Assembly (NCBI RefSeq): GCF_003967195.1
Contig: NZ_AP018725.1
Coordinates: 2,786,001-2,850,000 of the forward strand
DNA: 64,000 nt
Direction: 5' to 3'
Source: Sulfuriflexus mobilis
GTDB lineage: Bacteria > Pseudomonadota > Gammaproteobacteria > AKS1
The notes beneath the pieces are model-generated. The model was not told the DNA's origin. It ran no database searches and saw only the letters and a program-made list of their open reading frames with translations. This document shows, one piece after another, positions 15,920 through 48,898 of this stretch. Position 1 is the first letter of the stretch. Every line of letters starts with the position of its first letter. The position numbers and the translations under genes were made by a program.

Positions 15920-16311
15920 AAAATGGATTCAGGTACCAGTACTTTCTAATATTAGAGAAAACTGCGACCAGAACCTGTGGTTCAGGAAGTTGCCCTGACA
16001 CTGGAAGTGTAGGGTACTCATAATTGCCTCGACCCATTGGAAATGGGTGAGGTATCCATAATTGTCCTGACCCATCGGAGATGGGTAGGGTATCCATAAT
16101 GAACCTGAATAGGTTCTATGGTGTAAACCTGAATAGATTCTATGGTGTAACCCTGAAAGGGTTCTAAGTGAGTTCTGACCCCTTTTATCATTACGTATTC
16201 TATCGATGCCGGTATTGGCCACGCGCAACGTTGGCGTTACTATATAAATACGTTTTTTTCATCACGTTCACCCTCTACCTTGTTTTTTATCCGTTTTTGT
16301 AGGAGAAACAT
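15920..16311. other. Intergenic region dominated by hairpin array
   Basis: 392 bases between the GFA and HbpS-like genes. Most is hairpin array copy A. It ends with AGTTCTGACCCCTTTTA, a half of the dispersed inverted repeat. A good ribosome site (GTAGGAGAAAC) precedes the next gene. Confidence 0.6.
15950..16167 (+). repeat. Hairpin array, copy A
   Basis: Seven short stem-loops in a row joined by fixed linkers. Examples: GAACC-TGT-GGTTC (15971), CCCT-GA-CACT-GGA-AGTG-T-AGGG (15993), CCTC-GA-CCCATT-GGA-AATGGG-T-GAGG (16027), CCT-GA-CCCATC-GGA-GATGGG-T-AGG (16066), then two TGAATA-loop hairpins and one TGAA-loop hairpin. Linkers TACTCATAATTG and TATCCATAAT(T)G recur. The array starts about 30 bases after the GFA gene, on the same strand. 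Copies B (29445), C (31525) and D (48720, reversed) share this plan. Confidence 0.8.
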
Positions 16312-29444: not shown

Positions 29445-29602
29445 ATTAGAGAAAAGTGCATCCATAACCTTTGGTTCAGGAAGTTGCCCTGACACTGGAA
29501 GTGTAGGGTACTCATAATTGCCTCGACCCATTGGAAATGGGTGAGGTATCCATAATGAACCTGAATAGGTTCTATGGTGTAACCCTGAAAGGGTTCTAAC
29601 TG
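29445..29602 (+). repeat. Hairpin array, copy B
   Basis: Same order of stem-loops and linkers as copy A, with one fewer internal unit: ATAACC-TTT-GGTTC, CCCT-GA-CACT-GGA-AGTG-T-AGGG, CCTC-GA-CCCATT-GGA-AATGGG-T-GAGG, GAACC-TGAATA-GGTTC and AACCC-TGAA-AGGGTT. Flanked by TTAGAGAAAA on the left and TGTGCTCTGACCCC on the right. Confidence 0.8.
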
Positions 29603-29730: not shown

Positions 29731-29798
29731 GGGGTCAGAGCACAGTTTTTTCTAATATAAGAGATTGTGAATATTAGCGTTAATTGTGCTCTGACCCC
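29731..29798. repeat. Dispersed inverted repeat (CTGACCCC type)
   Basis: GGGGTCAGAGCACAGTT at the left and AATTGTGCTCTGACCCC at the right, centre with TAATATAAGAGA. One of the best-preserved copies in the window. Confidence 0.72.
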
Positions 29799-31524: not shown

Positions 31525-31682
31525 ATATTAGAGAAAAGTGCGCCCAGAACCTCTGGTTCAGGAAGTTGCCCTGACACTGCAAGTGTAGGGTACTCATAAT
31601 TGCCTCGACCCATTGGAAATGGGTGAGGTATCCATAATGAACCTGAATAGGTTCTATGGTGTAACCCGATAGGGTTCTTTGA
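31525..31682 (+). repeat. Hairpin array, copy C
   Basis: Same plan as copy B. Differences: the first loop is TCT, the CACT hairpin has loop GCA in place of GGA, and the last unit is AACCC-GAT-AGGGTT. Linkers TACTCATAATTG and TATCCATAATG are identical to copies A and B. Confidence 0.8.
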
Positions 31683-31762
31683 GAAATAATGAAGCTCTTT
31701 AGAGATTCTAAGTGTGCTCTGATCCCATTTATTATTGAATACCGTTATCCGGGCGTCTGTTT

Positions 31763-44007: not shown

Positions 44008-46052
<2,045 letters not shown>

Positions 46053-46266
46053 CCAATGGTCTGATTCTACCGGAAGCCTGCCCCGTCCACCACTACAAGG
46101 AGAAAAATGCCTATAAATAATAGACTTATGCCCTGCAGGGGTAAGTCCAAACCACGTCCAAATCCATCATATGCACCCATAAAGGATACCTGTGCCGGGG
46201 TGCTTGCCTGCCGGGGGCAACCTGTTACTCTCTTGCGGCGTAGAAATAAGGATGGGGAATAGAACA

Positions 46267-48695: not shown

Positions 48696-48719
48696 ATCGA
48701 TGATTTCTGGCTCACAGAA

Positions 48720-48898
48720 TCCCTTCGGGCTTACAGCATAGAACCCTATGGGTTCATCATGCATACCTTACCCACCGTACCGGAGGGTCAAGGCAATAGA
48801 ACCCTATGGGTTCATCATGCATACCTTACCCACCGTACCGGAGGGTCAAGGCAATTGTGAGTACCCTAACCTTCGTCCCGAAGGTTCAGGGCAATTGC
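48720..48898 (-). repeat. Hairpin array, copy D (reversed), with a 58-base tandem duplication
   Basis: Read on the minus strand: CCCT-GA-ACCTTC-GGGAC-GAAGGT-T-AGGG, linker TACTCACAATTG, then CCTT-GA-CCC(T)CCG-GTA-CGG(T)GGG-T-AAGG, then GAACCC-TAT-GGGTTC. The 58 bases carrying the last two hairpins are present twice (period 58 from 48741). Stem sequences differ from copies A-C, but the linker and plan are kept. The first hairpin overlaps the last codons of waaA and supplies its TGA stop. Confidence 0.8.

Follow-up and report, generated by a model that had tools for sequence, protein, structure and literature searches.

A self-nesting family of probable double-hairpin insertion elements in Sulfuriflexus mobilis and other Gammaproteobacteria

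Short palindromic repeats are common in bacteria, and for many of them the way of spreading is unknown. The double-hairpin elements (DHEs) of Allomyces mitochondria, and others like them, are short, optional pairs of adjacent hairpins whose mobility has been inferred, according to the excerpts available of their descriptions (PMC7218506, PMC2800124). The CGTC-tagged palindromes of Di Nocera and others (2013) are palindromic elements for which the available part of the account reports no dedicated transposase (PMC3733652). At the ends of IS200/IS605 elements, as set out in the accessible portion of the source, a guide sequence 5' of a hairpin pairs with the cleavage site (PMC8266576).

Four arrays in Sulfuriflexus mobilis (GCF_003967195.1, NZ_AP018725.1) are built from a unit that can be set beside each of these. 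Compared with DHEs by description, not by sequence, and within those excerpts, the unit likewise consists of two adjacent hairpins and is optional between relatives; unlike DHEs, it occurs in bacterial chromosomes, has a linker paired with a closing arm, nests within its own kind in a fixed order, and has terminators and CGTC palindromes as targets. Like the CGTC-tagged palindromes as excerpted, it is palindromic and no dedicated transposase was found for it, but its sequence is different, and CGTC-type palindromes serve it as insertion targets. With REP, BIME and REPIN elements it shares short length, bulged palindromes, many copies and a mostly intergenic location where this was checked. Unlike them, it lacks a terminal GTAG and an association with RAYT genes, and it nests; nor is it built as a REPIN, as its two hairpins differ in sequence and structure (alignments A2 and A3) and are not inverted copies of one REP. 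Among the papers listed in searches of open-licence PMC text, none described the repeat. We conclude that this insertion family of double hairpins is real, self-nesting and under structural constraint; it works like other non-autonomous palindromic elements but is neither REP nor REPIN by the features that define them.

The stretch analysed (positions 2,786,001-2,850,000 of the forward strand, 64,000 nt; hereafter the window) had been given a first-pass annotation that placed arrays at 15950, 29445, 31525 and, reversed, 48720, and all four were at those places. When a covariance model was run unfiltered across the entire window, its top ten hits coincided with the array units and with nothing else (E from 1.9e-17 to 0.0037); the model was made from 23 genome units, of which arrays 2 and 4 each contributed one. 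A GFA-domain gene and an HbpS-like gene flank array 1. Array 3 has a cytochrome c gene on the opposite strand as its neighbour and lies either upstream or downstream of it, and array 4 is where an outer membrane efflux gene and a Kdo transferase gene converge, with the 3' end of each facing it; the functions of these neighbours suggest no connection with the arrays. The same annotation called the family new-looking, and Rfam offered no match: at gathering score, a search of the window returned a TPP riboswitch only, and a near-threshold search with array 1 turned up nothing meaningful, its one match being weak and chance-like. The TPP riboswitch, at 45945-46060 on the minus strand, scored 67.3 bits, above the Rfam gathering score. 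Arrays 1 to 3 sit inside degenerate copies of GGGGTCAGAGCA-type repeats. Repeats of this type occupy 29 places in the window (for example 29731-29798) with at most two mismatches, against 4.3 expected, often as inverted pairs.

What is the repeating unit? Each had been described as a single bulged hairpin joined to the next by fixed linkers. Hairpin A is real, with an outer stem, a bulge, an inner stem and a loop that is usually GGA or GAA, but it is only half of the unit, and each A belongs with a B hairpin further 3'. At solitary loci, a linker comes after hairpin A, then a second hairpin, and finally a closing arm whose sequence is complementary to that of the linker. Comparison of dispersed copies gives a unit of about 55-60 nt that runs TG-hairpin A-linker-hairpin B-closing arm, with the consensus TGCCCTGA-stem-GGA-stem-TAGGGTA, CTCATAAT, GAACCC..GGGTTC and TATGAG. 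Nor are the linkers fixed: they co-vary with the downstream closing arm, each being half of a further stem, and the units are nested. Matched versions include CTCAT/ATGAG, CCCAT/ATGGG, CTCAC/GTGAG and CGCAT/ATGCG among others, and at least 10 linker/closing combinations are paired over four or five positions.

Array 1, on the plus strand, shows this organization to a depth of three. It is held by an outer, related unit type whose hairpin (CCAGAACC..GGTTCAGG, 15966-15990) is kept, with a few changes, in six aligned copies. Covariance-model matches and parsing identify hairpin A1 (15991-16016) and hairpin A2 (16025-16054). Between them lies linker 1 (CTCATAAT, 16017-16024), the insertion site of the inner units according to parsing, joined flanks and copy alignment. 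Linker 2 (TCCATAAT, 16055-16062, by parsing) leads to hairpin A3 (16063-16092), the start of the innermost unit that is intact (16063-16122, a 79.2-bit model match). Linker 3 (also TCCATAAT, 16093-16100) pairs with the closing arm at 16117, as model match and folding agree, and hairpin B3 (16101-16116) was found by parsing and folding. The remaining parts were all assigned by parsing: closing arm 3 (TATGGTG, 16117-16123), hairpin B2 (16124-16140), closing arm 2 (TATGGTG, 16141-16147), which is the partner of linker 2, hairpin B1 (16148-16164) and closing arm 1 (TAAGTGAG, 16165-16172), a decayed partner of linker 1.

Model match, parsing and copy alignment place array 2 (29485-29602) and array 3 (31567-31683), both on the plus strand and of depth two. 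Array 2 comprises A1 (29485-29510), a linker (29511-29518), an inner unit (29519-29579), B1 (29580-29596) and a decayed closing arm; array 3 comprises A1 (31567-31592), a linker (31593-31600), an inner unit (31601-31661), B1 (31662-31677) and the closing arm TTTGAG (31678-31683). Around array 3, copy alignment also identifies the outer related unit by its B hairpin and closing arm (31684-31716, plus strand). Array 4 (48711-48893, minus strand; model match and parsing) has A1 and the linker CTCACAAT at 48893-48855, a tandemly duplicated inner unit (48853-48796 and 48795-48735), B1 at 48733-48717 and the closing arm TGTGAG at 48716-48711. At loci L235, L133 and L010 we also saw related units in which the A hairpin is of another kind (CCAGAACC..GGTTCAGG; GTAGCGAAGCGTAGGT) and the B part is similar. 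At L148, L153, L156, L210 and L213, which are terminator-linked units, a conserved stretch (GTGGTGAA..CCAC) comes after the closing arm and is possibly a third domain.

The first three arrays are copies of one composite repeat; hence what they have in common cannot count as independent evidence for co-variation, and such evidence comes from loci outside the composite and from other genomes. The units examined formed a set of 141 from 99 loci, with most Lysobacteraceae MAG27 loci left out as near-copies. Of 37 units, alignment A1 included 27 (one trimmed), and alignment A2 left out four more. A 23-unit MAFFT alignment was paired in 95.6% of 568 cells and had double changes in 14 of 25 pairs, with a co-variation score of 0.384 against 0.151 for shuffled alignments, while slid partners never scored above 0.123; RNAalifold, to which no structure was supplied, predicted the same structure from these 23 rows except for one pair. 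Among 132 distinct units, compensated double changes reached 21 of 25 pairs and the score was 0.350 versus 0.145 when shuffled, although this alignment was made to the covariance model and leans towards its structure. The helix of linker and closing arm (helix 2) was paired in 92.2% of cells across the 132 units, with double changes in all six pairs. Both alignments thus uphold the earlier proposals that the stems co-vary and that pairing is under selection.

Parsing of the loci in the S. mobilis genome gave the patterns AB, AABB and AAABBB, which are nested and not tandem. In 11 of 12 two-level arrays the arms matched better in reverse than in direct order (the twelfth was a tie), and outer and inner arm matches both exceeded those of reshuffled arms (P = 0.00035). 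These 12 arrays were read by hand, because a looser automatic parser gave only 6 after duplicate removal; they are not all independent, as those at 29485 and 31567 represent the same composite. We left out L001 and L004/L220 (triple depth), L015/L240 and L009/L213 (outer part missing or truncated) and L066/L201 (unclear outer linker).

The composite repeat, aligned in six copies, records the steps. The same internal site holds one unit in L007 and L008 (1175 kb and 2038 kb), a second unit inside the linker of the first at 29485 and 31567, and a third inside the second at 15991; L018 is a further copy with its insert partly deleted. Copies with one, two and three units at one site argue for growth by whole units inside an older linker. 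Joined across its insert, the outer unit of 31567 differs from the solitary L008 unit by one mismatch, and the joined flanks of nested units match solitary units with one or two mismatches. Entry points within older units are the linker (CATAAT^) and the A-B junction (GGT^A; L205, L216 and L232), and it is entry at these points that puts the closing arms in reverse order. We consider the unit very probably a nesting insertion element.

Outside older units, two targets recur. Sixteen of 102 non-nested units start immediately downstream of a terminator-like hairpin with its T-tract, a junction found at 44 of 60000 random positions (p about 1e-32); no unit of the 102 has a terminator on its 3' side, so that the orientation is always the same. 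CGTC-type palindromes (GTCATTGCGA), assigned by their CGTC start and not tested against the families of Di Nocera et al. 2013, were filled at 18 distinct places, at several of which the other arm of the same palindrome provides the empty form. When the flanks of units were joined and searched (132 flank pairs), 18 counterparts with at most two mismatches were found, some of them tandem and self-derived; one empty-site counterpart lies in a tRNA-Ser neighbourhood (L227). Inserts at CGTC sites have the ends TG..TATGR. A lack of target duplication would be expected of an IS200/IS605-derived element; the CGTC and tRNA-Ser empty sites rejoin without a clear one, though a 2-base GA repeat may be present there. 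The right edge of the unit can be placed only to within 1-2 bases, and at the nested right junction TGTAA stands in place of the GAA of the empty site. General insertion into hairpin loops was weakly supported: the mean stem was 2.83 against 2.55, 2 of 300 shuffles equalled the higher mean, and stems of at least 6 were not enriched. At L224 and at L068 (G244), units come after nearly the same flank (CGCGTTCCGGGT) in two families; in L010 a tmRNA-like sequence follows.

The S. mobilis genome contains 83 covariance-model matches to the unit, which merge into 45 loci in both orientations. If the origin is near coordinate 0, 34 of the 45 fall in the origin-proximal half (p 0.0008). Units were present in all four genomes of the genus, in 6 of 56 relatives, and in at least 19 of 369 genomes and at least 13 of 271 genera of the class sample, where scoring of at most 14 candidates per genome makes the counts lower bounds. 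An exact pattern scan of a collection with one genome per species (described as covering 84,980 species; it may leave out the records of S. mobilis itself) returned 75 stretches, all titled as gammaproteobacterial groups; two Lysobacteraceae MAGs supplied 25 of the 75, and Thiohalophilus thiocyanatoxydans DSM 16326 and Thiohalobacter thiocyanaticus Hrh1 were among the strains with units. In the phylum sample, the one genome of 398 with units was S. mobilis. Phages and plasmids gave no match to a 248-base array, and IMG/VR viral contigs none to the unit pattern. The first-pass annotation had named few copies elsewhere and no co-variation beyond chance as findings that would speak against the family; neither was borne out.

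Could a REP-associated tyrosine transposase (RAYT) move the units? On this reading they would be REP/BIME-type elements on whose hairpins a RAYT acts in trans, which we consider doubtful. The unit hairpins are bulged, guide-like motifs 5' of palindromes are known from the portion of the literature available (PMC8266576), and RAYT genes, searched for with PF01797, a relative's protein and NF047646, occurred in 17 of 19 unit-bearing genomes. However, 190 of 274 class genomes also had one, which is no clear enrichment (p about 0.07, from overlapping samples), and no RAYT was detected in two unit-bearing genomes, G083 (one contig) and G097. GTAG was absent within a few bases of either end, on either strand, in all 141 units, although 62 have it inside hairpin A on the top strand. 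RAYT loci in the S. mobilis genome lacked units, and RAYTs in several unit-bearing genomes were flanked by other repeats. Among 30 RAYT-search loci and 18 further ones (partly the same places), confident unit matches occurred only at the G003 locus (L111 and L109, which are one place), where the unit comes after a porin terminator; that terminator is filled in G003, unfilled in G001 and of different sequence in G002. Because units do not flank RAYT genes except at this locus, we rejected RAYT as the obvious mover. The three congeners G001, G003 and G002 (L110-L112) have a 170-aa RAYT adjoining the porin gene, with no close homologue in S. mobilis (best match 24% identity). In the S. mobilis genome, L031 (G000:C1:2058057-2061377) contains a full-length RAYT between GGGGTCAGGTCTTG repeats; L032 has a truncated one between GGGGTCAGAACACTTG-type repeats.

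Perhaps the arrays grew in place, by replication slippage or template switching at palindromes, with hairpins duplicated locally and stems corrected and no transposition at all? Tandem copies do exist: L230 (G000:C1:2377790-2379922) has seven tandem 112-bp repeats with one unit in each, the inner unit at 48735-48853 is duplicated, and in array 1 hairpin B3 nearly duplicates B2. The scarcity of G-T intermediates would also fit template-switch correction. Yet the A hairpins of inner and outer units at the same site have unlike sequences, solitary units stand at unrelated sites with readable empty sites, and the family is spread over 13 genera. We regard local growth as unlikely.

The arrays might instead be transcribed as a putative regulatory or protein-binding RNA, for example with their GGA loops as CsrA sites. 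GGA is the most frequent loop (61 of 141 units, with 33 left unassigned by the parser). Compensatory changes are strong, the 16 terminator-linked units lie in transcript orientation, and the fold is stable: for single-strand folding of 15990-16169, z was -3.54 as RNA and -5.99 as DNA, and 0 of 200 dinucleotide shuffles were as stable. On the other side, loops vary, the 45 loci are dispersed in both orientations, Rfam has no meaningful match, and empty sites show insertion. G-T pairs made up 36 of 1718 paired cells at the 15 variable pairs of the unit, against 12 of 230 in a small control of variable acceptor and T-stem columns from 21 tRNAs (Fisher p 0.010). This scarcity, from a small control, leans towards pairing or template correction at the DNA level, and with the insertion evidence it leads us to favour a DNA element; an RNA function seems improbable.

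Group IIC introns favour terminators, but retro-insertion of that kind, for which the single orientation of terminator junctions would speak, is scarcely credible and was largely refuted by a search for group II reverse transcriptase, found in 5 of 19 unit genomes (one above the cut-off) and not in S. mobilis, and the unit is far too short for an intron.

The reading we hold to be probable is that of non-autonomous double-hairpin insertion elements, mobilized in trans by an enzyme whose gene would lie elsewhere. Against it, searches for REP transposase and group II reverse transcriptase found no moving enzyme, and recent movement of a unit was not observed. The integron attC core is GTTRRRY, and it occurred in none of the 141 units on either strand. 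The enzyme would act on folded single-stranded DNA. New units enter an older unit's linker or A-B junction, terminator T-tracts in one orientation, or CGTC-tagged palindromes. As at the right end of IS200/IS605 elements in the accessible source (PMC8266576), the linker 5' of hairpin B is complementary to sequence 3' of B, and it may pair with the right end in the manner of a guide. By this analogy a single-strand, guide-based mechanism is conceivable, though we put it forward tentatively. Unlike IS200/IS605 elements, the unit carries no transposase gene and begins with TG directly at hairpin A, with no room for a left guide between its edge and the hairpin. A lagging-strand mechanism predicts an orientation bias, but none was seen (26 versus 33 strand-clusters, p 0.43, with the origin inferred from the GC skew of sampled loci).

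A bolder version, which we think has a rather low probability, is that the units are a new enzyme-in-trans mobile DNA in which the linker is both internal guide and preferred landing site, in an undescribed single-strand system unrelated to RAYT. If this is true, the linker pairs and co-evolves with the right end, and the element builds bracket-like nested structures in bacterial chromosomes. Within a single genome, copies with one, two and three levels form a readable history of insertion, the co-varying arms offer a test for guide-like choice of ends, and because the targets are defined (terminator T-tracts and CGTC palindromes), the mover can be searched for. Nested growth with kept pairing is a clear structural signature for surveys of other repeats.
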